Source: Acidisphaera sp. S103
Lineage (GTDB): Bacteria; Pseudomonadota; Alphaproteobacteria; Acetobacterales; Acetobacteraceae
Length of the DNA: 64,000 bases
NCBI RefSeq assembly: GCF_009765975.1
Contig: NZ_LMUJ01000036.1
Span: forward strand, 88,588 to 152,587
Direction: 5' to 3'
Position numbers and translations under genes: made by a program. This document shows positions 35,287 to 47,067 of the stretch, piece after piece. The notes under the pieces are model-generated. The model saw only the letters and a list, made by a program, of their open reading frames with translations, ran no database searches and had not been told where the DNA came from. Within the stretch, counting starts at the first letter, position 1. Each line of letters opens with the position of its first letter.

Positions 35287-36516
35287 GTGACCCCGATCCC
35301 GGTTCCCGAACCCGATATGACCCCCGAACGTCTGTGGGAACGCGCCATCGCCCTGCGCCCCCTGCTGCGAGCGCAGCAAGATGAGGCCGACGAACTCGGC
35401 ACCTACTCCCCGGACGTGCACGAAGCCTTCCGCCAGGCCGGCTTCTACCGTGTCACCCAGCCCCGCCTGTTCGGCGGCTATGAATTTGAACTGCGAACCA
35501 ACTACCGCCTGATCGTCGAGATCGCCCGAGGCCACCCCGCCGCCGGCTGGTGTCTGTCCCTAGGCGGCTCCCACGCCTACGTCGTCGGCTCGCACTGGCC
35601 CGAGCAGGCCCAACGAGAACTGTTCGGCACCGACGGCCACTTCATCGCCCCGCACCGCCCGGCCACCATGGGCACCCTGAAACCGGTGGACGGCGGCTAC
35701 ATCCTGAACGGCCAGTGGAACTATTGCTCCGGCATTCCCTACGCGACACACCTGCTGTGCGGCGCCACGCTGGACGGGGCAGGGGACCCGCGCCAGGTGG
35801 TGGTGCCGCGGGCGTCGTTCGAGGTCCTCGACGACTGGGGCGGCGATCGCACCCTGGGCATGCGCGCCAGCGGTTCCCACAGCGCCCGCATCCGAGACGC
35901 CTTCGTCCCCGAACACATGGTGATCCGCCTCGACTGGATGGGCGCCCGCCCCGACGGCCTGGAGAACGGCACGGCCGGCACCCGCCTGCACGGCAACCCG
36001 ATGTATCTCGGCCGCATGATGGGACCATATCATTGCTCTCTGGTATCGGTGGTGGTTGGCGCCGCCTGGGCCGCACTGGACGAATTCGAAACGCTGATGC
36101 TGCGCAACCGTTCCTTGGCCGATCCAACCCTGCTATGGGCCGACCACCCCGACTACCTGCGCCCATTCGGTCTTGCCATGTCAATGACCGAGGCCGCCGA
36201 AACGATCTTATACGGCGTAGCCGACCGCTACATGGCCCACTGCCGCGCCTGGGACCGCGACCGTACCCCCTTCACCGTCGAGGACAATTTGCGCCTATGG
36301 GCACTCGCCCAACAAGCCGGAGGCCTGGCCCGCCAGGCGGTGGAACTGCTGTTCCAAAACTCCCTGTCCGCCCCAACAAAAAAAGGCAGCCGCCTGGACC
36401 GCTACTACCGAGACGTGGCGATGTACAACTCCCACGTCTCGGCTCTACAGAACAACCAGGCGACCTACGTAGCCCGCGCCCATTTCGGCCGCCCAACCGG
36501 CTTCCGGGGCCTATGA
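35287..36516 (+). CDS. Acyl-CoA-dehydrogenase-like flavin monooxygenase
   Basis: 409 residues. The acyl-CoA dehydrogenase fold is clear: DEADELGTYSPDVHEAFRQA then GFYRVTQPRLFGGYE in the N-terminal helical domain; YILNGQWNYCSGIPYATHLL in the middle domain; DDWGGDRTLGMRASGSHSARIRDAFVPEH split by the usual R-S-GS motif; and a C-terminal helical bundle ending LFQNSLSAPTKKGSRLDRYY RD. This is the group D monooxygenase type (HsaA, PgaA-like), which needs a separate flavin reductase; none is nearby. Start is a GTG at 35287; an ATG at 35317 would drop 10 residues. Probable aromatic hydroxylase, substrate unknown. Confidence 0.85.
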   Translation: MTPIPVPEPDMTPERLWERAIALRPLLRAQQDEADELGTYSPDVHEAFRQAGFYRVTQPRLFGGYEFELRTNYRLIVEIARGHPAAGWCLSLGGSHAYVVGSHWPEQAQRELFGTDGHFIAPHRPATMGTLKPVDGGYILNGQWNYCSGIPYATHLLCGATLDGAGDPRQVVVPRASFEVLDDWGGDRTLGMRASGSHSARIRDAFVPEHMVIRLDWMGARPDGLENGTAGTRLHGNPMYLGRMMGPYHCSLVSVVVGAAWAALDEFETLMLRNRSLADPTLLWADHPDYLRPFGLAMSMTEAAETILYGVADRYMAHCRAWDRDRTPFTVEDNLRLWALAQQAGGLARQAVELLFQNSLSAPTKKGSRLDRYYRDVAMYNSHVSALQNNQATYVARAHFGRPTGFRGL

Positions 36517-36619
36517 CACCGCCCGCGTGTCCACTCCCGTCCCGTCCCGCCGCGCCCGTCCCGCCGCGCCCGCCACCCGTAGTCGCCTGTCATCCGACGC
36601 CGCCCAATCCCCCCGCGTC

Positions 36620-36641
36620 ATGGCCGGCGCAGGCCGGCCAT
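36620..36641. repeat. Dispersed REP-like palindrome
   Basis: ATGGCCGGCGCAGGCCGGCC followed by AT, a near-perfect inverted repeat between two convergent genes. It is a shortened form of the unit found at 29908, 50884, 53991 and 57744. It may stop transcription from both sides. Confidence 0.55.
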
Positions 36642-36668
36642 CCACGCCTTTGAGCAGACGACGTCTCC

Positions 36669-37859
36669 TCAAACCGCCCGGTTCCCCGCCCCCCAATTCT
36701 CCTCCAAATTCCGCACCAACGCCGGACTAAAGTGGCAGGACGCCTGTTCCCGAGCGTAAACCGCGCAATACCGCCGGAACAAATCCAACGGTTCCACCGC
36801 TACCCGCAACGCCCGCCGGTTCCCAATCGCCCCCACCGCCCCAGAACTGGTCAGCAACGCCACCGTATCTTCAATCGCCTCATCCATCCCCCCATCCGGG
36901 ATGATTTCATCACAAAGCAAACGACCCTCGGCACTATCACTCTCAATCCGCCGCTCCGCCTGAATCAACTGCCGTGCCAGCCGATCCCCGGTAAACCGAG
37001 CCAACCGCAAATTGGCCGCCCCCGGAATAATACCTTCCTTCCGAGCAGGCAACGTAATGAACGACCCGCGCGTCGCAAGAACATAGTCCATGGCAAGCAA
37101 AATCTGGCAGTGCCCGCCAATAGCCCACCCCTCGACCGCCGCGATCCACGGCTTCTCCCGCGCCACGCCATTCACATCATCCGGCAGCACGTCCGGTGTC
37201 GCCACACCACGGAAATACTTGTGCATGAAACCAAGTTCCCGTTGCAGATACCACACGAACGGGATCGAGCCATGATACAGATGCGTCAGATTAATGCCGC
37301 TGCCAAAGATCCGCCGCCCAGCATACTTGGCATGCTGCACCGGTTGCCCCCGCAACACCGCAATATCCGTCCCGGGATCGAGTATCGCCACATCGACCCC
37401 GATTTCCATCGCCTCGATGGTCCCCTGATCCTCCGCATTCAAATACCGAGGATTACTGCTCAACAAATGCGCCGCCCGCCCGTGCCGTTCCACCCGAACC
37501 GCCCCCAGATCGACGAACCCCTGAGCATCCAGTGCCGCCAACGCCACCGCCGTCTCCGGCCGAGGCAGCAACATCGCATGACACAGATGCGTGCCACACC
37601 GAGGATTCGCCAGGATATGCGCCAGCAGCAGGCTCTGATCGACCTCAATCCCCTCCTTATCCTTCAGCTTTCGCCCCGCTTCCTCCGCCAGCGCCGCCCG
37701 TGTCGGCACCAGCCCTGGATACGCATCGGCAGCCCGCAGCACCAACTCCTCGACCCGCACGAACCGAGTCAATCCGTTGGTCAAACGATCATACACCGAC
37801 TCCACATGATCGCGCAGGAACGCCATCCGTTCGGAACGATTGGCCAGCATCGGCATCAC
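36669..37859 (-). CDS. DpgC-like crotonase-fold protein (cofactor-independent dioxygenase type)
   Basis: 396 residues, longer than ordinary enoyl-CoA hydratases (about 260) and with an extra N-terminal helical domain, as in DpgC, the (3,5-dihydroxyphenyl)acetyl-CoA 1,2-dioxygenase of glycopeptide biosynthesis. Family wording is present: AYPGLVPTRAALAEEAGRKL, KDKEGIEVDQSLLLAHILAN PRCGTHL (interrupted here), NPRYLNAEDQGTIEAMEIGV, then HAKYAGRRIFGSGINLTHLY and LQRELGFMHKYFRGV; the crotonase oxyanion region is WIAAVEGWAIGGHCQILLAM. DpgC uses O2 without metal or flavin to convert an arylacetyl-CoA to an aryl glyoxylate. Overlap by 4 bp with a PaaK-type ligase gene fits an arylacetyl-CoA substrate. 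Whether it is oxygenase or hydratase is inferred from homology. Confidence 0.85.
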   Translation of the reverse strand: MMPMLANRSERMAFLRDHVESVYDRLTNGLTRFVRVEELVLRAADAYPGLVPTRAALAEEAGRKLKDKEGIEVDQSLLLAHILANPRCGTHLCHAMLLPRPETAVALAALDAQGFVDLGAVRVERHGRAAHLLSSNPRYLNAEDQGTIEAMEIGVDVAILDPGTDIAVLRGQPVQHAKYAGRRIFGSGINLTHLYHGSIPFVWYLQRELGFMHKYFRGVATPDVLPDDVNGVAREKPWIAAVEGWAIGGHCQILLAMDYVLATRGSFITLPARKEGIIPGAANLRLARFTGDRLARQLIQAERRIESDSAEGRLLCDEIIPDGGMDEAIEDTVALLTSSGAVGAIGNRRALRVAVEPLDLFRRYCAVYAREQASCHFSPALVRNLEENWGAGNRAV

Positions 37860-39142
37860 CCTTTCGGTCGAAGATCCACCACCCGTTTCGCCTTGCCCTG
37901 GGATCGTTCCAGCGTCCCCGGTTCCACCGCCCGCACTTTCGTCGTAACGCCGGCAAACACCTTGATCTGATGTTCCGCCCGCCGCTCGATCTCCGCCCGT
38001 TCGGCGTCACCCAGAGCAGCCCGCGTCTCCACCACCACATCGAGCTCATCCAGGCTGCCCGGCCGCCGCAGTTCCAGCACATAATGCGGCGCCAGCTTCG
38101 CGTCCTTCGCCAGCACCGTCTCGATCGCCGAGGGAAACACATTCACCCCCCGGATGATCAGCATATCGTCACTACGCCCGCCAATACGATCCATCCGCCG
38201 CATCGGCCGGTTCGCCGGCGGCAACAAACGAGTCAGATCGCGCGTGCGATAGCGAACCAGAGGCATGCCTTCCTTGGTCAGCGTGGTAAAAACCAGCTCC
38301 CCCATGTCTCCGTCCGCGACCGGCTGGCCGGTGGCCGGATCGATGATCTCCGGAAAGAAATGATCTTCCCAAATCGTCAGTGCGCCCTTTGAATCAGCGC
38401 ACTCCTGCGCCACACCCGGCCCCATGACCTCCGACAACCCGTAAACATCCAGCGCCTCCAGCCCCAGCCGCCGCTCCAGTTCGGCACGCATCCCTTCACC
38501 CCAAGGTTCCGCGCCGAAAATACCCAGCCGAAGACTACATGCGCGCGCATCGATCCCCTGCCGATCGAACTCGTCGGCAATCGCCAACAGATAGGACGGC
38601 GTGACCATGATAATATCAGGCGTGAAGTCGTTGATGATCTGCACCTGCCGTTCGGTGAACCCGCCACTCACCGGAATGACCGCCGCGCCCAAATATTCGC
38701 CGCCGTAATGCGCGCCCAGGCCGCCGGTGAACAACCCGTACCCATATGCCACATGGATCTTGTCCGAAGCCCGTCCGCCCGCCGCCCGAATAGACCGAGC
38801 CATCAGCAACGACCACACCTCGATGTCGTTCTTCGTGTAACCACAAACCGTCGGCTTCCCCGTCGTTCCGCTGGACGCATGGATGCGCACGATCCGGTCC
38901 ATCGGCACCGCAAACATCCCAAACGGATAGTTCTGCCGCAGGTCTTCCTTGGCCGTCAGCGGAAACCGGCTGATATCTTCCAACCGCCGCAGATCGTCCG
39001 GATGCACGCCGGCCGCATCGAACCGAGACCGATAATGCGGCACCTGCTCATATGCCCGCCGCACCACATCCCGCATGCGATCCAACTGCAAGGCTCGCAG
39101 TTCATCGACGCTTGCGGTCTCGATCGACTCGACGCCTCCCAT
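37856..39142 (-). CDS. Phenylacetate-CoA ligase-like (PaaK-type) aryl-CoA ligase
   Basis: 428 residues. PaaK/adenylate-forming features: MRDVVRRAYEQVPHYRSRFD, ISRFPLTAKEDLRQNYPFGM, P-loop-like RIHASSGTTGKPTVCGYT, IFGAEPWGEGMRAELERRLG, DVYGLSEVMGPGVAQEC, YRTRDLTRLL and GGRSDDMLIIRGVNVFPSAI ETVL (broken here). It would activate a phenylacetic acid or similar aryl acid to its CoA thioester with ATP. The ATG at 39142 follows GGAGGGAAC; an ATG at 39163 adds seven residues. It overlaps the DpgC-like gene by ATGA, which suggests that its product is the DpgC substrate. Confidence 0.92.
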   Translation of the reverse strand: MGGVESIETASVDELRALQLDRMRDVVRRAYEQVPHYRSRFDAAGVHPDDLRRLEDISRFPLTAKEDLRQNYPFGMFAVPMDRIVRIHASSGTTGKPTVCGYTKNDIEVWSLLMARSIRAAGGRASDKIHVAYGYGLFTGGLGAHYGGEYLGAAVIPVSGGFTERQVQIINDFTPDIIMVTPSYLLAIADEFDRQGIDARACSLRLGIFGAEPWGEGMRAELERRLGLEALDVYGLSEVMGPGVAQECADSKGALTIWEDHFFPEIIDPATGQPVADGDMGELVFTTLTKEGMPLVRYRTRDLTRLLPPANRPMRRMDRIGGRSDDMLIIRGVNVFPSAIETVLAKDAKLAPHYVLELRRPGSLDELDVVVETRAALGDAERAEIERRAEHQIKVFAGVTTKVRAVEPGTLERSQGKAKRVVDLRPKG

Positions 39143-39166
39143 GACTGTTCCCTCCACGTGCATCCT

Positions 39167-39955
39167 CTATCGCATTGGCAGCGTCCTCAGCCACGCCAGC
39201 GCCGGTTCGATCCCCGCGTCGGGCGTGCCGAGATGGACTGCGCTGACATGTGCCATGTGGTTCAGGTTGTTCGCCGGCAGCGTCGCGAACCAGGCATCCG
39301 CATTGCCCTGCGAGCGATCGTCATCGCCGGCGACCCACAGCACCGGCACCGTTATCTTCGGAAGACTGCGCGGGAACACCGCGGGACCCTCGGGGTCAGT
39401 AAAACTCAGGAAAATCGCGGCGGTGGTGTAAACCGTGAAGTGGTTGCCATTATTGGTCGCGGTAAAGCGCGCTCGGTCGTTACCATGGCCGTTCGAGACC
39501 ATCTGCCGCGCCTGAGTTACGCTCTCCTGCACGCTCTGATTACGGACCAGACCTTGGGGATTGCCCGCCGGGGCCAACGCGATGACGCCGGCGATGTCGG
39601 GATGGGTCGACGCATATGTCAGCGCCGCATTGCCACCTTCACTCTGACCGGCGATGACGATGCGACGGGCGCCCATCGCCCGCAATTTCCCAGCAGCGGC
39701 GTCGATGTCATGCAGGCAGTCGGGGAAGGGGGCGTCATAAATGCGGTTGCGTGACCAGCACATTTCCGGCGCCTGGACCGCGTAGCCGGCATTCTTCAAC
39801 GCCATTTCAAAGCGGGACGTGACGATGCTTCCCGGCAGGCCCTGAGTGCCATGCAACACGACGACGCCGATATCGCTTCCGGCCCAAACCGGCCCCGCGA
39901 TCCCCGCGGCCAGCACAGACGTCAGGATGGTTCGCCGCCGAAAATGCCCGGCCAT
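39167..39955 (-). CDS. Exported alpha/beta hydrolase
   Basis: 262 residues. A twin-arginine-like signal, MAGHFRRRTILTSVLAAGIA, ends near VWAGS, so it is probably periplasmic. Hydrolase motifs are VVVLHGTQGLPGS, nucleophile elbow IAGQSEGGNAAL near residue 105, APAGN, WVAGDDDRSQG (acid) and a C-terminal HMAHVSAVHLG. It lies between the CoA-transferase (5 bp) and the ligase (24 bp) in the operon, so it may release the aryl acid from an ester outside the cytoplasm before uptake. That role is inferred. Confidence 0.83.
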   Translation of the reverse strand: MAGHFRRRTILTSVLAAGIAGPVWAGSDIGVVVLHGTQGLPGSIVTSRFEMALKNAGYAVQAPEMCWSRNRIYDAPFPDCLHDIDAAAGKLRAMGARRIVIAGQSEGGNAALTYASTHPDIAGVIALAPAGNPQGLVRNQSVQESVTQARQMVSNGHGNDRARFTATNNGNHFTVYTTAAIFLSFTDPEGPAVFPRSLPKITVPVLWVAGDDDRSQGNADAWFATLPANNLNHMAHVSAVHLGTPDAGIEPALAWLRTLPMR

Positions 39956-39960
39956 CGTGC

Positions 39961-41163
39961 CTAAATCACCCCCTCCGCCTGTAACCGTTCGATTTCCGCA
40001 TCCGACAAACCCAGCCGCCCTTGGTAAATTTCCGAGTTGTGCGCACCAAGTTCCATGCCCAGCCAGTTGACCTTCCCCGGCGTCTCCGTCAGCCGAGGCA
40101 CCAGATTCGGCACCGCCAGTTCACCCACCCGGGAGTCCGGCACCCGCAGTATATTCCCCCGGGCAGCGTACTGCGGGTCCTCGAATATTTCCTCAATCGA
40201 ATAGACCGGCCCACACGGAACCTGACTGGTCTCGCAACGAAACATCAGTTCCGCCCGATCCAACGTCGCCGTCCACGCCCCGACCGTTTCATCCACGACT
40301 GCCCGATCGCGTTCCCTGGCCGCAAGGGTACCCCAACGATCCGCATCCGCCAATTCCGGCCGCCCCATCGCCTCGGCGAGTCGGGAAAATATCTTGTCGT
40401 TGGTGCAGGCGATGGCGATCCAGCGCCCATCCTTGGTCGGATAGTGGCTGTGCGGAACGACATTGACCGTCCCAGGCCCCATGCGCTGCCGCACCGTCCC
40501 CTTATAGGCAAACGCTGGCGCAAGCTCATCCAGGATACGAAAGATCGGCTCATACAGCCCAATATCCACGACCTGCCCGCGTCCGGTCTTCTCCCTCGCC
40601 TGCAACGCCAGCAGAGTACCCAGCGCGCCGTACAGCCCCGCCATATAATCCGGAATCGTCGCCGACCCAGGCGTCACCGGCGCCCGATCCGGATACCCCG
40701 CCAGGAACGACAGCCCGCCAAACGCATTGCCAATACGCCCGAACCCCGGACGGTCCTTATACGGCCCCGTCTGCCCATACCCCGAAATCCGCACCATGAT
40801 CAGCCGAGGATTCACCGCGCTCAGCACATCGTAGCCCAGGCCCCATTTCTCTAACGTACCTGGCTGAAAATTCTCCACCATCACATCAGACTCGGCGACC
40901 AGCCGCTTCAACAAAGCCGCCCCATCTGGCTTGCGCAAATCCAACGTAATGCAGCGCTTGTTCCGCGATTCCGACAGCCACGGCAGCGAATCCCCGCATT
41001 CCGTCATCGTACCGAACCGCCGCGTGGCATCGCCCACAACAGGAAGCTCGATCTTGATCACATCCGCCCCGAACTCGCCCAACTGAGTGGCGCAGAACGG
41101 CCCCGCCAGGAAGGTGGACACATCCAGGACCTTGCAGCCCTGCAACGCCTGCACATCGATCAT
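39961..41163 (-). CDS. CaiB/BaiF (family III) CoA-transferase
   Basis: 400 residues. GCKVLDVSTFLAGPFCATQL, GADVIKIELPVVGDATR, the NKRCITLDLRKPDGAALLKR segment, VMVENFQPGTLEKWGLGYD, VRISGYGQTGPYKDRPGFGR and the catalytic Asp in TIPDYMAGLYGALGTLLAL are all standard. It transfers CoA between carboxylic acids. Overlap by 4 bp with the CitE-like gene suggests that it charges the lyase's substrate. Confidence 0.93.
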   Translation of the reverse strand: MIDVQALQGCKVLDVSTFLAGPFCATQLGEFGADVIKIELPVVGDATRRFGTMTECGDSLPWLSESRNKRCITLDLRKPDGAALLKRLVAESDVMVENFQPGTLEKWGLGYDVLSAVNPRLIMVRISGYGQTGPYKDRPGFGRIGNAFGGLSFLAGYPDRAPVTPGSATIPDYMAGLYGALGTLLALQAREKTGRGQVVDIGLYEPIFRILDELAPAFAYKGTVRQRMGPGTVNVVPHSHYPTKDGRWIAIACTNDKIFSRLAEAMGRPELADADRWGTLAARERDRAVVDETVGAWTATLDRAELMFRCETSQVPCGPVYSIEEIFEDPQYAARGNILRVPDSRVGELAVPNLVPRLTETPGKVNWLGMELGAHNSEIYQGRLGLSDAEIERLQAEGVI

Positions 41164-42005
41164 CGCACAGCCGCCAATACACGCCGAGCGCGTTGCACAA
41201 TGGGATAGTCGATGAATTGTCCATCCAGTTGTATCGACGCCAACCCCTTCGCCTCGGCTTCGTCAAAGGCCGCAACAACCAGTTTCGCCCGCGCGACCGT
41301 GGCCTCATCAGGACTGAACGCCGCGTTGGTAGGCGCCACCTGATCGGGATGGATACACATCTTACCCTGAAACCCCAGCGCCGCCGCATGCTTTGCCGAC
41401 GCAATGAAACCATCCGCGTCTCGCAAATCCGCCCAGACCGTATCCATCGGCGGTTCCCACCCCGCCGCCCGAGACTCCATCACGCAAGCCGCCCGATGCG
41501 GCAACAACTCCGCCTCCGACCGGCTCCAAACCATGCCCATATCCAAGGTGAAATCACCCGCCCCGAACGCTAGGCACTTAGCCCGCGTGCCCGAACGGCA
41601 GATCCGCGAAAGATTGCTGATGCCAAGCGTCGTTTCGATGATCGGGATCAGGTCGATCCCACCAACCGGCAGCCCGCGTTCCCGTTCCAGATTACTGATC
41701 AGCCAGTCCGCAGTGCGCAGCTCATGACCATGTTCCACCTTCGGCAGGATGATCCCGTCCAACCCCTTCTGCACCACCGCGACCAAATCGCCATGGCACC
41801 AATCCGTCGTCAGCGCATTGACCCGCACATACAGCTTGCCAACCCGAGGCGCGCCAAACGCCCCAACCACCACCGGCCGCGTCGCGACCTTCTCCGACAC
41901 CGCAACCGCATCTTCCAGGTCCAGGATCACCCCATCGGCCGGCAATCCCAGCGCCTTCTCCACCCGGCGCGCATGATTGCCGGGCGCGAACAGCATGCTC
42001 CTCAT
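41160..42005 (-). CDS. CitE/HpcH-HpaI family lyase
   Basis: 281 residues. MRSMLFAPGNHARRVEKALG, ADGVILDLEDAVAVSEK (metal-binding E-D), YVRVNALTTDW, DGIILPKVEHGHEL, IPIIETTLGISN, CLAFGAGDFTLDMGM and GFQGKMCIHPDQV follow CitE-like proteins in order. Relatives cleave or form malyl-, citramalyl- or hydroxymethylglutaryl-CoA-type thioesters. It overlaps the CoA-transferase gene and the monooxygenase gene by 4 bp each. Confidence 0.92.
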   Translation of the reverse strand: MRSMLFAPGNHARRVEKALGLPADGVILDLEDAVAVSEKVATRPVVVGAFGAPRVGKLYVRVNALTTDWCHGDLVAVVQKGLDGIILPKVEHGHELRTADWLISNLERERGLPVGGIDLIPIIETTLGISNLSRICRSGTRAKCLAFGAGDFTLDMGMVWSRSEAELLPHRAACVMESRAAGWEPPMDTVWADLRDADGFIASAKHAAALGFQGKMCIHPDQVAPTNAAFSPDEATVARAKLVVAAFDEAEAKGLASIQLDGQFIDYPIVQRARRVLAAVR

Positions 42006-43366
42006 TGCGCCGCCCTCCGTCCATTATGCCAATCAACCGCCCGAGGAACCGGCAGCCCCAGGTTCTCCCGCAATGTCGTGCCCAGATAATCCTTCTGGAA
42101 CAGCCCACGCCGTTGCAACTCCGGCACCAGCAGCCGCACGACGTCCTCATAAGCGCCCGGCATATGCGTCGCAGCCAGAACGAAACCGTCGCACGCCGGC
42201 GCGGTGAACCATTCCTCCATCTGATCGGCCACCGATTTCGGCGTGCCGCAGAACACCTTGTGTTCGGCAATGGTGCCGCGCCCGGATACCTCGACAAAAT
42301 CACGCACCGTGGGGTTCTTCTTGCCCGAGAACTTCACCACCCGTTCCCGGAACCCGTGCCACGAAAACCCAGCCAGTTCCTCATCGCTGAATGGCTCGTC
42401 GTACCCTTTGGATCCAAAATCATAGTTCAGCACTTCAGAGATCAGCACCAGTGCATCGACCGGTTTCATCGATGCCTCGATGACGGCCCGCTTGTCCTGG
42501 GCAGCTTCTTCCGATTCCGCGACGATCACGTAACAGGCCGGCGCCACCTGCACCAGGGACGGATCGCGCCCGGCAGCGGCGATGGCTTTCTTGAAGTCGG
42601 CGTATTGCTGCTTGCCGGCTTCCAGATTGTGATAAATTACGAACACCAGTTCCGCCCATTGCGCGGCGAACGACTGCCCGCGTCCCGACTGGCCCGCCTG
42701 GATCAGCACCGGATGACCCTGCGCCGACCTGGGCACACTGAACGGCCCACGCGATTTGAAATACCGCCCCACATGATCCAACCGATGCACCTTCGCCGGA
42801 TCGGCGAAACGACCGTCCTTATCCAAGATCAGAGCATCATCTTCCCACGTATTCCAATGCCCCATCACCACTTCCATGAACTCATCCGCTCGGTCGTAAC
42901 GAGCATCATGTTCCATGTGTTCGGCGTGACCAAAATTCAGCGCCTCCGCGCTATTCAGCGACGTAACGATATTCCACGCCACGCGGCCTTTCAGCATCAG
43001 GTCCATCGTCGCGAACACACGCGCCACGTGATACGGCTCGTAATACGTCGTGGAATACGTCGTCCCCAGCCCCAACTTCGACGTCGCCATGCCCATCGCC
43101 ATCAGGATCGTCGACGGATCCATCTTCACCACACGCACACCGGCACCGACCGCCTCGGCGTGGTGACCGGTGTATAGATCGGGCATCGCCAGGCGATCAT
43201 CGAAGAACGCCAACTGTATCTTCCCGTCCTCCAACGTGCGAGCAATACGCTGGTAATATTCCGGTGTCATAAAGTCAGACATCGACGACGGATGTCGCCA
43301 CGATCCCGGCAGATTGGAACAATTCTGCGCCTGCAAGAACGCAACCAAGGTCATCATGCGGTTCAT
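42002..43366 (-). CDS. Luciferase-like flavin-dependent monooxygenase (NtaA/SnaA/DszA type)
   Basis: 454 residues, the length of the NtaA/SnaA/DszA group. Segments: NLPGSWRHPSSMSDFMTPEY, ARTLEDGKIQLAFFDDRLAM, TSKLGLGTTYSTTYYEPYHV, DLMLKGRVAWNIVTSLNSAE, EFMEVVMGHWNTWEDDALIL, SVPRSAQGHPVLIQAGQSGR GQSFAAQWAELVF (broken here). It needs reduced FMN from a separate reductase, not encoded nearby. Such enzymes cleave C-N, C-S or ester bonds by oxygenation. It overlaps both neighbours by 4 bp. Confidence 0.92.
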   Translation of the reverse strand: MNRMMTLVAFLQAQNCSNLPGSWRHPSSMSDFMTPEYYQRIARTLEDGKIQLAFFDDRLAMPDLYTGHHAEAVGAGVRVVKMDPSTILMAMGMATSKLGLGTTYSTTYYEPYHVARVFATMDLMLKGRVAWNIVTSLNSAEALNFGHAEHMEHDARYDRADEFMEVVMGHWNTWEDDALILDKDGRFADPAKVHRLDHVGRYFKSRGPFSVPRSAQGHPVLIQAGQSGRGQSFAAQWAELVFVIYHNLEAGKQQYADFKKAIAAAGRDPSLVQVAPACYVIVAESEEAAQDKRAVIEASMKPVDALVLISEVLNYDFGSKGYDEPFSDEELAGFSWHGFRERVVKFSGKKNPTVRDFVEVSGRGTIAEHKVFCGTPKSVADQMEEWFTAPACDGFVLAATHMPGAYEDVVRLLVPELQRRGLFQKDYLGTTLRENLGLPVPRAVDWHNGRRAAQ

Positions 43367-43683
43367 CGTGTCGTCTCCGGAATCTCGACATCCAGCAGCG
43401 GAGCATGCTGCTGACAGCCATAAACATCGGTATCACCAAAATCCCCCGCCGGAACCAGCCGGGGAAACGTCGCCTTGAACGCGAACGCGGCATCATACGG
43501 GGTGAACAGAACATGCTCCTCGGGCACATTGTATAGACGCGCGAACAACGCCGCGCACAGCACCCCAGTGGCTTTCACCCGCTGAAACGTCTCGGCATCC
43601 TCGAACACCACATCCACGGTCAGCTCGAACGGCCCGGCATTCTTGCTCTTGCAGACTTTCGCGACATCTTTCAGCAGCGCCAT
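43363..43683 (-). CDS. DUF4387 protein
   Basis: 106 residues: MALLKDVAKVCKSKNAGPFE, LTVDVVFEDAETFQRVKATG, LFARLYNVPEEHV and FKATFPRLVPAGDFGDTDVYGCQQHAPLL in two parts. This family regularly accompanies, or is fused to, AtuA-type proteins. SKNAGPFELT-D--F is its signature. It starts one base after the AtuA-like stop and overlaps the monooxygenase start, so all three are probably translated together. Function unknown. Confidence 0.85.
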   Translation of the reverse strand: MALLKDVAKVCKSKNAGPFELTVDVVFEDAETFQRVKATGVLCAALFARLYNVPEEHVLFTPYDAAFAFKATFPRLVPAGDFGDTDVYGCQQHAPLLDVEIPETTR

Positions 43684-43684
43684 G

Positions 43685-45052
43685 TCACAACGCCTCATAA
43701 TGAATAGGGAACGGCTCAACCGGATCGTCCAGTTCGGCGACGTGATACACGCTGAAGCGGTAAACCGGCCCCACCTCGATATCCGAAGGCGAGAACGGGA
43801 ACGCCATGTTCCCCTCCCGGCACAATCGCCCGGGAAAATCGGTGTGCAGCATGTTGGTGCGCGCCATGCCCAGAACCGCACTGGCCATTTCCTGACTCAC
43901 CTGGGAAACAACCTCCAACACAAACCCCAGCTCATGCGGCACCGCGTCGCGCAGCGGCTCTCGGGCCGCCATCACGCCATCACGTCCGTAAACACGAATG
44001 CCAAGCTGGTAACTATCCGGAGACGCACCAAACGCCGCCGCCTTCGAGGCAACTTCACCACGGACACTGGAAATAAAGTCGTCCAACCGCCCGATCAGCA
44101 ACGGGTCGCGCGTGCCGCAAACGCACACCGACCGATACCCCGCCAGCGCAACCCCCTCCAATTTGACAGTATACCGCTCGGCCTTCACCCATCGCATACC
44201 AGAAATCCGCACCGCCCGATCGCTGACCGCCTCAAACCGGCAATCGGACGTGTCCAGCATCCCTCCCGGCTCGATATGATGGATCGGACTGCTGTTCTCG
44301 TGCAGCGAGTGGTTGGCGATCGACAGCGGCGTGCAACGGCGCGCCGGATTGGTCGGCTCGCATTCGACATGGTCGTCACGTACCGTAACGAACAGACAGT
44401 CATGCCCCTTCGGGATCGACGGCGTCGCCCCGCATTCCAGCATTTTGCCGGCATACCAGGCCGGGGCAGGGGGCAAACCCGCCCGCGTCGCCGCCGCCAC
44501 CCAGGACGCCGGATCGCTCGCCCGCCCCGCCAGCACCACTTGCGCCCCATTATCCAGCGCCGAGACAAACGGTTCCGGCCCCATCATCGCCACCACGCGT
44601 GTGGATGCATCGATCGTTGCATCCGCCAACACCGGCTGCCGAACCAACGGCTTCACCCGCCCCGCCGCCACCCGCCTTTTCAACGACGCCTTGTCCTGCT
44701 CCGCCTCGATCAGCGCCATCTTGAAATGCAGCCCGTCCTCCCGAGCGATCTCCCGCGCCATTCCCGCCACCAGATCAAGATGCGGCGCCGCGCCCGCCCC
44801 GCCGCAAGTCCCGATCACCATCGGAATCCCCGCCCGCACCGCCGCGTTCAGCATCAATCGCAGATCACGCCGGATGGCGATGGGGGAACAGAACGGCTTG
44901 CCCGACCCCAGGTAATGCGGCCCCGGATCGACGCTGCCGCCATCCACGCCGATCACATCCGGCCGGCGATCAAGCCCAGCCTGTAGCGAGGCCTCAGGAA
45001 ACCCGTACCCAAGGATCGCGCTGGTGGACAGCAGACGAATTTCCCGGCTCAT
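43685..45052 (-). CDS. AtuA-family protein (acyclic terpene utilisation, DUF1446)
   Basis: 455 residues. ILGYGFPEASLQAGLDRRPD, VIGVDGGSVDPGPHYLGSGK, MVIGTCGGAGAAPHLDLVAG, VVLAGRASDPASWVAAATRA, LGKMLECG-type KMLECGATPS, CEPTNPARRCTPLSIANHSL and DPLLIGRLDDFISSVRGEVA match AtuA-like proteins. AtuA is essential for citronellol/geraniol use in Pseudomonas but its reaction is not known. No geranyl-CoA carboxylase genes (AtuC/AtuF) are present, so this operon should serve a different substrate. First gene of the eight-gene operon. Confidence 0.88.
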   Translation of the reverse strand: MSREIRLLSTSAILGYGFPEASLQAGLDRRPDVIGVDGGSVDPGPHYLGSGKPFCSPIAIRRDLRLMLNAAVRAGIPMVIGTCGGAGAAPHLDLVAGMAREIAREDGLHFKMALIEAEQDKASLKRRVAAGRVKPLVRQPVLADATIDASTRVVAMMGPEPFVSALDNGAQVVLAGRASDPASWVAAATRAGLPPAPAWYAGKMLECGATPSIPKGHDCLFVTVRDDHVECEPTNPARRCTPLSIANHSLHENSSPIHHIEPGGMLDTSDCRFEAVSDRAVRISGMRWVKAERYTVKLEGVALAGYRSVCVCGTRDPLLIGRLDDFISSVRGEVASKAAAFGASPDSYQLGIRVYGRDGVMAAREPLRDAVPHELGFVLEVVSQVSQEMASAVLGMARTNMLHTDFPGRLCREGNMAFPFSPSDIEVGPVYRFSVYHVAELDDPVEPFPIHYEAL

Positions 45053-45129
45053 GCGGCAGGCTCAACATCTGGCATCGATCATTTCCTCCTATAGAGGGAA
45101 TGCACTGATCCCACGTCACGGGCAAGCGT

Positions 45130-46419
45130 TCACCCACCCAGCCGCAGCGCAATACTCCGAGCATGCGCCTGCAACCCCTCGGCCTCCGCCAACGCCACCC
45201 CCGCCGGCCCGATAACCGCCAGCGCCGCCTCCGAGGCCGACACGAACGTCGTCCGCTTCAGAAAATCGAACACTGACAACCCGGACGCAAACCGAGCCGT
45301 CCGCCCCGTCGGCAGCACATGGTTCGGCCCGGCGACATAATCCCCCACCGCCTCCGGACAGAACGCCCCCAGGAACACCGCCCCCGCATGCCGCACCCGG
45401 GCAAACACCGCCTCCGGATCGCGCAACATCAACTGCAAATGCTCCGGAGCCAACCGGTCTACCAACCCGACCGCCTGGTCCCAGTTCTCCACCACGATAA
45501 CCGCCCCATGCGCATCCCAGCTCGCCCCCGCGATCGCAGACCGGGGCAGGGTGGGCAACTCCGCCGTCACCGCCGCCGCCACCGCATCCGCGAACCCCGC
45601 ATCATCCGTGATCAGGATCGACTGCGCCGCCTCATCGTGCTCCGCCTGAGCCAACAGATCGACCGCAATCCGCCGAGGGTCATTCGACCGGTCCGCCAAC
45701 ACCACCACCTCCGACGGCCCGGCGATGTTGTCGATGCCGACCCGCCCGAACACCTGCCGCTTCGCCTCGGCCACATACGCGTTCCCCGGCCCGACGATCC
45801 GGTCCACTGCCGCGATCGACGCCGTGCCATACGCCAGCGCCGCCACCGCCTGAGCCCCGCCGATCCGATAGATCTCCGACACCCCGGCGCGCCGAGCCGC
45901 CGCCAGCACCAGCGGGTTCAACACCCCATCCGGCGTCGGCACGCACATCGCGATGCGCGCCACCCCCGCTGCCCGCGCCGGGATCGCATTCATCAGCACC
46001 GACGACGGATATGCCGCCTTGCCCCCCGGCACATACAGCCCGACCGCATCCAGCGCCGTCCACCGCATGCCCATCGTCACCCCGGCCGCGTCCGTCATCC
46101 GCAAATCGGCCGGCAACTGCGCCCTGTGAAACGCCTCGATCCGCGTCGCCGCCAGATCCAACGCCGCCGCCAGTTCAGCCGGAATCCCCGCCACCGCCGC
46201 ATCGACCTCGGCCGAGGACACAAGCAACCGGTCCGCCGTCAGCACCATCCGATCGAACCTGGCAGTATAATCTATAACCGCCGCATCGCCGCGCGCTCGG
46301 ACATCGGCCAGAATGCCGGCCACGACACGATCCACCGTCTCGGTAGTTTCGCGGGCCTGGGAGAGCAACGCCACGAACTGGGGTTCGAAGCCGGGATCGG
46401 AGATGCTAAGGCGGATCAT
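45130..46419 (-). CDS. hisD: Histidinol dehydrogenase
   Basis: 429 residues of full HisD length. VGLYVPGGKAAYPSSVLMNA, IPARAAGVARIAMCVPTPDG, RIGGAQAVAALAYGTASIAA, VDRIVGPGNAYVAEAKRQVF, GIDNIAGPSEVVVLADRSND and LAQAEHDEAAQSILIT carry the zinc ligands (Gln, His) and NAD site; the catalytic His pair is in DRLAPEHLQLM. It makes histidine from histidinol in two NAD-dependent steps. No other his gene is in the window, as is usual for dispersed alphaproteobacterial his genes. Confidence 0.97.
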   Translation of the reverse strand: MIRLSISDPGFEPQFVALLSQARETTETVDRVVAGILADVRARGDAAVIDYTARFDRMVLTADRLLVSSAEVDAAVAGIPAELAAALDLAATRIEAFHRAQLPADLRMTDAAGVTMGMRWTALDAVGLYVPGGKAAYPSSVLMNAIPARAAGVARIAMCVPTPDGVLNPLVLAAARRAGVSEIYRIGGAQAVAALAYGTASIAAVDRIVGPGNAYVAEAKRQVFGRVGIDNIAGPSEVVVLADRSNDPRRIAVDLLAQAEHDEAAQSILITDDAGFADAVAAAVTAELPTLPRSAIAGASWDAHGAVIVVENWDQAVGLVDRLAPEHLQLMLRDPEAVFARVRHAGAVFLGAFCPEAVGDYVAGPNHVLPTGRTARFASGLSVFDFLKRTTFVSASEAALAVIGPAGVALAEAEGLQAHARSIALRLGG

Positions 46420-46444
46420 GCCGCTGCTGTAGCCGATCCGAACC

Positions 46445-46480
46445 GGCGCGTCATGGGGTCTCGTGAAACCCCAACGCGCC
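46445..46480 (-). terminator. Hairpin downstream of the ferritin-like gene
   Basis: GGCGCGT at 46445-46451 pairs with ACGCGCC at 46474-46480, and inside it TGGGGT pairs with AACCCCA. It begins three bases after the ferritin-like stop codon and lies upstream of hisD. There is no T-run, so Rho-independent termination is uncertain. Confidence 0.45.
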
Positions 46481-46482
46481 GA

Positions 46483-47067
46483 TCAATCCTCCAGACGAGG
46501 CTTGCCTTCATGCGCGATCAGCAGGTCGTGCATGTCTGTCGCGTGCTCTTCTTCGACCGACAGGATCCCCTCCAGCATCACCCGCGTAGCCGGGTCGTCG
46601 TTGTCGAAATAGCGCACCAACTCCCGGTAATGATCCACCGCGATCCGTTCGGCGATCAGGTTCTCCTTGATCATGTCCACCAGATTACCGCCCTCGGAGT
46701 ATTGCGATGCCGAACGGCTCGCCATTCCCTCGGGGTTGAAGTTGGGCTTGCCACCAAGTTGGTCGATCCGCTCCGCGACCGCCATCGCATGGGCCTGTTC
46801 TTCTTTCGCATGCTGGGCAAACTCGGCCTTGATGCCCTCGCTGGAAATGCCGGTCGCGGTCACCGCATGCATCGTGTAGCGCAACACGCAGACGATCTCC
46901 GTGGCCAATACCGACTGCAGGATTTCGATCGTCTTCTTGACGTCGCCGCCATACGTGGACGTCACCACCCCCGAGGACATGTTCTTCCGCGCACGCTCGC
47001 GCAACGTTTTGACATCGCTCAGAAAGGGCTTGCCGGACGCGTCTTTGCTCACAGGGGCGTTACTCAC
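46483..47067 (-). CDS. Ferritin-like (bacterioferritin/DPS-type) protein
   Basis: 194 residues. A four-helix ferritin-like domain follows a 45-residue tail: ILQSVLATEIVCVLRYTMHA, AEFAQHAKEEQAHAMAVAER (E..EE..H di-iron motif), DQLGGKPNFNPEG, then NLIAERIAVDHYRELVRYFD and LEGILSVEEEHATDMHDLL (E..E..H). Both iron-ligand sets are complete. The start is a GTG with AAGGAGAT nearby. It should store iron or protect against peroxide. Confidence 0.9.
   Translation of the reverse strand: MSNAPVSKDASGKPFLSDVKTLRERARKNMSSGVVTSTYGGDVKKTIEILQSVLATEIVCVLRYTMHAVTATGISSEGIKAEFAQHAKEEQAHAMAVAERIDQLGGKPNFNPEGMASRSASQYSEGGNLVDMIKENLIAERIAVDHYRELVRYFDNDDPATRVMLEGILSVEEEHATDMHDLLIAHEGKPRLED

Follow-up and report, generated by a model that had tools for sequence, protein, structure and literature searches.

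Described systems and the locus studied

An eight-gene, minus-strand operon of Acidisphaera sp. S103, located in a stretch of 64,000 nucleotides (contig NZ_LMUJ01000036.1, positions 88,588 to 152,587; hereafter the window), resembles parts of several described systems. One of these is the paa pathway (PaaK together with PaaABCDE), which shares with the operon the PaaK activation step, but PaaA was found in none of the 23 examined genomes that carry a homologue of the dioxygenase DpgC. In Thauera and Aromatoleum, phenylglyoxylate is reached anaerobically by a phenylacetyl-coenzyme A (CoA):acceptor oxidoreductase. This route and the one proposed below have in common the overall alpha-oxidation with the ring kept intact, but the latter would, if the proposal is right, depend on O2 and on a single-subunit, cofactor-free enzyme.

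DpgC itself is a (3,5-dihydroxyphenyl)acetyl-CoA 1,2-dioxygenase (PDB 2np9, 5kag). The last protein of the operon is about 45% identical to it and keeps six checked residues, but differs in falling below the cut-off of the DpgC profile, in being paired with PaaK, in belonging to a separate tree group and in that none of the eight operon genes is dpgA, dpgB or dpgD. PglA, of pristinamycin phenylglycine formation, is named a dioxygenase acting on phenylacetyl-CoA, for which paaABCDE competes (PMC7089894). The substrate proposed here and the competition with paaABCDE are the same, whereas PglA serves an antibiotic and the partner here is PaaK; the comparison was made with proteins of pgl-like clusters. 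Both subunits of the citramalate lyase CmlAB (PDB 9erq, 9evf) are matched nearly end to end by an adjacent gene pair of the operon, predicted from sequence and lying beside a flavin oxygenase, CaiB and CitE, whereas the corresponding pair in Escherichia coli lies beside glutamate/methylaspartate genes. Itaconate/citramalyl-CoA degradation, which according to PMC12290011 employs a CoA transferase, a hydratase and (S)-citramalyl-CoA lyase, shows the same combination of a CoA-transferase with a CitE-type lyase, but the CitE here reaches 152 bits against the 375 required for the citramalyl-CoA lyase RipC, and the operon has no hydratase and a luciferase-like monooxygenase (LLM) instead.

Judged by gene order in related genomes, the operon is two recurring catabolic modules joined: module A (AtuA, DUF4387, LLM, CitE and CaiB) and module B (PaaK and the DpgC-like protein). 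According to the explanation that we regard as fairly probable, module A would serve citramalate-like acids, and module B would form an O2-dependent phenylacetate route that leads to the box pathway and replaces the paa epoxidase. The explanation is built on homology, conserved residues, gene order and which genomes have or lack PaaA and BoxB. From these we infer co-transcription, the substrates and every chemical step, the conversion of phenylglyoxylate into benzoyl-CoA included. We do not claim that the two modules are metabolically linked.

The family sample included 299 genomes, searched for DpgC (14 positive) and DUF4387 (83 positive), and the window proteins were mapped onto 20 regions from family genomes. 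Genomes are designated with G (G000 is that of the window) and loci or regions with L. A contig search with the DpgC-like protein gave 386 relatives, the best 80 of which are referred to as the named DpgC loci. Many of the compared genomes are metagenome assemblies, and some of their titles are doubtful.

PaaK and the DpgC-like protein

The predicted route would begin with the conversion of phenylacetate to phenylacetyl-CoA by PaaK. The DpgC-like enzyme would oxidise the alpha-carbon of phenylacetyl-CoA with O2, using neither metal nor cofactor, to phenylglyoxylate or benzoylformyl-CoA, and phenylglyoxylate would be decarboxylated or oxidised to benzoate or benzoyl-CoA. Benzoyl-CoA could then enter the box epoxidation pathway, with module B standing in for the paa epoxidase.

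An earlier annotation of the locus (the original prediction) had expected CoA-dependent catabolic enzymes, including CoA activation of an aryl acid and an O2-dependent oxidation. The first of these agrees with the profile matches, and the activation with PaaK, which exceeds the TIGR02155 equivalog cut-off for phenylacetate-CoA ligase (Table 1; 670.2 bits in the genome search) and is the sole such gene in the window's genome at E <= 1e-100. The oxidation is upheld by homology: the DpgC-like protein matches solved DpgC over residues 7-374 of 396 (E about 1e-87), and residues E189, R254, Q299, I235, G296 and I324 of DpgC recur unchanged in the window protein and in all 17 other aligned sequences of its type. 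Two Streptomyces sequences from nonribosomal peptide synthetase (NRPS) clusters differ from DpgC in only one of the six, I324, which is Leu. In a tree of 27 sequences the window type (19 sequences) formed a group of its own, to which neither the actinobacterial DpgC nor the PglA-like proteins belong; nearly all its members are proteobacterial, one being titled Chloroflexi and one Deltaproteobacteria. The Streptomyces genes have other neighbours: dpgA and dpgB adjoin three of the dpgC genes and dpgD one, and two PglA-like genes occur between NRPS genes together with E1 alpha/beta-type genes, an alpha/beta hydrolase, MbtH and an aminotransferase, a layout that appears like that of the pgl genes.

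The six residues are part of the active site, and in DpgC the ring hydroxyls are contacted by E189, R254 and Q299. Their conservation would also suit a module B acting on a hydroxylated phenylacetate (3-hydroxy- or 3,5-dihydroxyphenylacetate) and producing hydroxyphenylglyoxylate by the chemistry of DpgC. The same three residues are, however, also kept in the Streptomyces homologues within pgl-like clusters and are thus not diagnostic of ring hydroxyls, PaaK matches the phenylacetate model, and the association with BoxB described below points to benzoyl-CoA, all of which makes a hydroxylated substrate unlikely. That the DpgC-like protein would be an enoyl-CoA hydratase or thioesterase instead of an oxygenase, PaaK supplying phenylacetyl-CoA for detoxification or signalling, accords with its membership in the crotonase superfamily and its score below the DpgC cut-off, but is improbable given the match over nearly the whole of DpgC and the retention of all six residues.

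The route from phenylacetate through PaaK and the DpgC-like enzyme is apparently undescribed: a literature search, mainly of open papers, gave no account of a phenylacetyl-CoA dioxygenase route to benzoyl-CoA and none joining PaaK and DpgC. A wider proposal, for and against which we see the balance as even, is that many proteobacteria degrade phenylacetate through a cofactor-free phenylacetyl-CoA dioxygenase and, with the ring intact, the box pathway. The enzymes would then form a third, catabolic branch of DpgC, carried on a transferable cassette of two genes, paaK and dpgC, the carriers of which have no paa epoxidase. If true, this would account for aerobic phenylacetate use by bacteria with PaaK and without PaaA, and would extend an enzyme family of antibiotic pathways into general carbon metabolism.

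PaaA and BoxB in DpgC-bearing genomes

PaaA (TIGR02156) was present in 85 of the 299 family genomes, in 0 of the 14 with DpgC and in 85 of the 285 others (Fisher p = 0.013). Among 385 class-wide genomes 47 had PaaA; the ten DpgC carriers, which include the window's genome, had none. The original prediction that the paa ring oxygenase is absent holds for PaaA, which gave no match at E <= 1e-60 in this genome (97% complete). Within the genus, G000, G099 and G199 carry DpgC and no PaaA, G156, G235 and G265 carry PaaA and no DpgC, and G290 carries neither. The first six have exactly one PaaK each at E 1e-100, which in the three DpgC-bearing genomes is the DpgC-linked gene.

Of the 14 DpgC genomes, 12 gave a match to BoxB (TIGR03225), one of these being a contig-edge fragment below the cut-off; the same search matched 10 of 26 hand-picked comparison genomes (four of the same genus, twelve without PaaA and ten with PaaA; p = 0.007). 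The fragment, in G114, is encoded on the same strand as PaaK-DpgC, with only a few bases between it and the downstream pair. The window's genome exceeds the BoxB cut-off (G000:C80, 856.3 against 499.1 bits), and beside this gene, on another contig than the operon, there are a BoxC-like gene (615.3, cut-off 712.3) and a benzoate-CoA ligase gene (708.9, cut-off 375.25). One of the 80 named loci, L088, has a 29% match to the benzoate-CoA ligase query. Control searches of 14 well-known genomes detected no DUF4387, DpgC or BoxB, PaaA in three and PaaK in six (one over the cut-off).

Another luciferase-like oxidoreductase occurs near boxB in the box cluster of the window's genome (L184, G000:C80:168001-184000).

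PaaK-DpgC neighbourhoods

In 40 of the 80 named loci a PaaK of at least 50% identity lies directly upstream of the DpgC-like gene on the same strand; five further loci have PaaK in another arrangement and seven are undecidable. An isolate with the pair is Hyphomicrobium sp. CS1BSMeth3 (L101); the dpgC-like gene of Rhodopila globiformis DSM 161 (L082) has no neighbouring PaaK. Up to two open reading frames (ORFs) on each side of 44 PaaK-bearing loci (L077 excluded) were scanned, altogether 128 of 138, after omission of the L075 hisD and of nine others that were short or very long. Among the best 25 of 161 families no conserved third partner was found, and since the commonest Pfam family, TctC, occurred in only 6 of the 128 flanking ORFs, the PaaK-DpgC pair looks like a stand-alone cassette.

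One PaaK-DpgC locus, L142, belongs to a metagenome assembly titled Bordetella parapertussis, a name that probably arose from faulty binning or labelling.

Several of the results weigh against the proposed phenylacetate route. The DpgC-like protein falls below the NF042432 equivalog cut-off (Table 1). The absence of PaaA is not significant at class level (0 of 9 further DpgC genomes against 47 of 375, p = 0.61), the Paa search covered PaaA alone, PaaB-E not being searched, and the p-values ignore relatedness; the three DpgC-bearing genomes of the genus share the leader of module A and may be one clade. The genomes compared for BoxB were chosen by hand, two DpgC genomes have no BoxB, and the physical link with boxB is a single case at a contig edge (G114, outside the 80 named loci), while neither BoxB nor BoxC was detected near DpgC at E 1e-25 in the 80 named loci. 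A benzoylformate decarboxylase-like gene is present in all seven genomes of the genus, with or without DpgC (436-445 bits, cut-off 493), and matches in the other 11 DpgC genomes reach at most 209 bits. In addition, 28 of the 80 named loci have no PaaK despite more than 2.5 kb of upstream sequence. One of the PaaK-less DpgC-like genes, that of the Reyranella-type locus L121, is adjoined by regA/regB and an acyl-CoA dehydrogenase, and the neighbouring ORFs recur in about 20 related loci; the DpgC-like family may therefore not be uniform.

Benzoylformate decarboxylase was considered as the universal next step and rejected on these scores; all 14 controls also match, none over the cut-off.

Two modules in one operon

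The five-gene module A is complete in six of the seven sampled same-genus genomes, the window and G199 counted. It occurs without an adjoining module B in G099, G156, G235 and G265, and in G290 the contig stops after DUF4387. Of the 14 family genomes with DpgC, 13 have PaaK next to it; in the remaining one, G074, the locus is cut by a contig end and the DpgC frame contains one stop. A search for the same gene order elsewhere, suggested earlier as a check, thus found the five-gene block in five other genomes of the genus and the PaaK-DpgC pair in many genera, and these recurrences make the gene order more than chance.

The two modules are joined in two genomes only, those of the window and G199. 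The G199 locus (L058) lacks the exported hydrolase and keeps the other seven genes in unchanged order. None of the other 13 genomes with DpgC in the family sample, and none of the 80 named loci, showed the full row of eight. G099 carries modules A and B on separate contigs, and in this genome as well as in the named locus L075 the order is hisD-PaaK-DpgC. In the window module A begins 77 bases after hisD, with a leader like that of the stand-alone module A in G099, and this is most simply explained if module A, bringing its own leader, became placed between hisD and PaaK. Such a history of the fusion is tentative, since hisD was not found in the 20 kb covered at the G199 locus.

The tight same-strand packing in the window, and the seven genes retained in order in G199, could also indicate one integrated pathway for an aryl ester or aryl-substituted acid, in which the hydrolase would free an aryl acid, PaaK and DpgC would oxidise it, and LLM and the lyases would break down the remainder. 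A single eight-gene pathway of this kind, as originally envisaged, is hard to maintain and we consider it very unlikely: the two blocks are apart in most relatives examined, even in G099, which holds both, and module A is present in G156, G235 and G265, where the DpgC search gave no match. Moreover, the hydrolase was not matched in L058, nor at 1e-10 in the 80 named loci. It was rejected as a pathway member on this basis, and the extracytoplasmic ester cleavage ascribed to it is left without comparative support.

The citramalate lyase-like pair and module A

The AtuA protein matches chain A of PDB 9erq/9evf with 391 bits (residues 1-453, E = 5.5e-116) and the DUF4387 protein chain B with 84.7 bits (E = 4.9e-23, 9erq_B); the records name these chains as citramalate lyase subunits CmlA and CmlB. 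Both matches cover nearly the full length, and the two genes lie side by side, 1 base apart. AtuA is 41-88% identical to 13 relatives. The pair is thus probably CmlAB-like, a predicted citramalate lyase and not a terpene enzyme, and the terpene reading of AtuA gives way to this match. The claim of citramalate cleavage rests on the PDB names, as no matching enzyme paper was found: none of the literature found mentioned DUF4387, and none of the matches listed dealt, by title or opening of the abstract, with a CmlA/CmlB/AtuA citramalate lyase. On the chromosome of E. coli KE47 the genes run glmS-glmL-glmE-methylaspartate ammonia-lyase-AtuA-DUF4387, followed by a symporter and a class I fumarase, and this order fits a putative path from glutamate through mesaconate and citramalate to pyruvate and acetate. 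If the prediction is true, the AtuA/DUF4387 pairs of many genomes (DUF4387 being carried by 83 of the 299 in the family) gain a concrete hypothesis, and caution is due with terpene-enzyme labels on AtuA homologues.

Two other functions were considered for the pair. Terpene degradation was rejected on the CmlA/CmlB match; geranyl-CoA carboxylase of the Atu pathway is not among the operon genes, no genome-wide search having been made. A mesaconate hydratase or isomerase, an idea from the E. coli context, was dropped because the E. coli cluster already includes a class I fumarase and the PDB records name a lyase.

A second AtuA, 41% identical, occurs with DUF4387 in reversed order elsewhere in the window's genome (L060, G000:C29). 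G199 also has an LLM of 64% identity divergent from a 41% AtuA and DUF4387.

LLM exceeds the cut-off of the NtaA/DmoA subfamily (Table 1). In a comparison with PDB its best solved relative was DszA, followed by YtnJ, and nitrilotriacetate monooxygenase was also among them. These enzymes cleave C-S or C-N bonds. In module A, LLM may make a malate- or citramalate-type hydroxy acid or release such an acid from a larger molecule. The acid would be cleaved directly by the CmlAB-type lyase (AtuA and DUF4387), citramalate giving pyruvate and acetate, or alternatively CaiB would transfer CoA to it and the CitE-like lyase would form a 2-oxo acid and acetyl-CoA. The expected pair of a lyase and a CoA-transferase is thereby accounted for by CitE-like and CaiB.

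A plasmid search with AtuA and LLM gave seven records from five organisms, with LLM identities of 60-80%, and one record per organism was examined, each of the five organisms having an LLM of 63% identity or more. LLM lies beside AtuA-DUF4387, with no match to CitE or CaiB, on the Methylobacterium, Diaphorobacter and Cupriavidus plasmids, and beside CitE-CaiB, without AtuA, on those of Pseudosulfitobacter and Variovorax. In Rhodococcus an LLM relative of 51% identity is near CaiB and CitE matches. Around 14 other LLMs (54-61% identity, three of them in the window's genome) no such partner directly adjoins LLM; four of these regions carry CaiB homologues of 26-40% identity. The distribution suggests that CmlAB and CaiB with CitE may be alternative cleavage routes for one product class of this LLM clade, both of which are carried by the same-genus genomes.

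The assignment of module A to citramalate-like acids also meets counter-evidence. CitE and CaiB reach no NCBIfam cut-off, and in two of the 14 regions of distant LLMs an AtuA/DUF4387 pair is found at a distance of about 7 kb. Neither flavin reductase (two query sequences) nor TctC (one) was matched at E 1e-6 next to module A in L058, L060-L066 or the window.

Two plasmids carry related gene sets. The conjugative Pseudosulfitobacter plasmid P7 (L160, 35.8 kb) has CitE-CaiB-LLM-flavin reductase-RibB-IclR together with a TRAP transporter and is a mobile form of module A without CmlAB. On a haloarchaeal plasmid of Halomarina sp. BND7 (L071), LLM-AtuA-DUF4387 are divergent from CaiB-CitE, with amidohydrolase, isochorismatase and aconitase-type genes; this LLM is of another kind and at 1e-8 does not match that of the window.

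Locus layout and leader

The assembly containing the window comprises 8.37 Mb in 116 contigs. All eight ORFs of the operon (36669-45052, minus strand) were present as first described, and their family assignments are backed by Pfam and NCBIfam profile matches (Table 1). The spacing claimed for them, overlaps of 4 bp or gaps of at most 24 bp, stands with the longer start of LLM and fails with the shorter, which leaves 80 bases between DUF4387 and LLM. Overlaps of 4 bases join LLM/CitE, CitE/CaiB and PaaK/DpgC, and also DUF4387/LLM if LLM starts at 43366, the remaining gaps being 1, 5 and 3 (or 24) bases.

Table 1. Features of the operon and its upstream flank, with profile scores and cut-offs in bits.
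Feature	Coordinates	Strand	Evidence
AtuA-family, CmlA-like (predicted citramalate lyase subunit A), module A	43685..45052	-	PF07287 65.1, cut-off 22.8
DUF4387, CmlB-like (predicted citramalate lyase subunit B), module A	43363..43683	-	PF14330 115.5, cut-off 27
LLM, NtaA/DmoA-family flavin mononucleotide-dependent monooxygenase, module A	42002..43282 (alternative start 43366)	-	TIGR03860 472.8, cut-off 279.7
CitE-like CoA-ester lyase, module A	41160..42005	-	PF03328 153.8; NCBIfam citE (citrate lyase) 216.1, cut-off 443.4
CaiB, family III CoA-transferase, module A	39961..41163	-	PF02515 392.8; under every NCBIfam cut-off
Accessory alpha/beta hydrolase, signal-like N-terminus (judged by eye), outside both conserved modules	39167..39955	-	PF12146 35.6
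PaaK, phenylacetate-CoA ligase, module B	37856..39142 (alternative start 39163)	-	TIGR02155 670.5, cut-off 646.3
DpgC/PglA-type cofactor-free dioxygenase (crotonase superfamily) by homology, module B	36669..37859	-	NF042432 386.8, cut-off 530
Module A leader between hisD and AtuA	45053..45129	-	promoter-like pair, ribosome-binding site, 8-codon ORF
hisD, upstream neighbour	45130..46419	-	directly precedes PaaK-DpgC in G099 and L075

In an alignment of relatives the leader shows a promoter-like pair, CTTGCC-N17/18-GCATTC (N17 in the window). A strong ribosome-binding site is present too, as is a short ORF of 8 (window), 10 or 14 codons, the stop of which overlaps the AtuA start. The window, G199 and G099, where module A stands alone, have this leader in common. 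Support for the promoter-like pair comes from these three related genomes; the pair does not align in four other genomes of the genus, and a scan for consensus sigma-70 sites found none at the leader. No inverted repeats were detected at the module boundaries in 36400-46600, where only five weak two-copy direct repeat families were found.

ARAGORN called a 97-base tRNA-Asn (anticodon att) at 39416-39512, antisense to the hydrolase gene, which is probably a false call. An HsaA-like oxygenase subunit of a flavin monooxygenase is encoded at 35287-36516 on the plus strand, convergent with the DpgC-like gene (133.7 bits, cut-off 450), and L088 has a gene 85% identical to it at a distance of about 5 kb from PaaK-DpgC.

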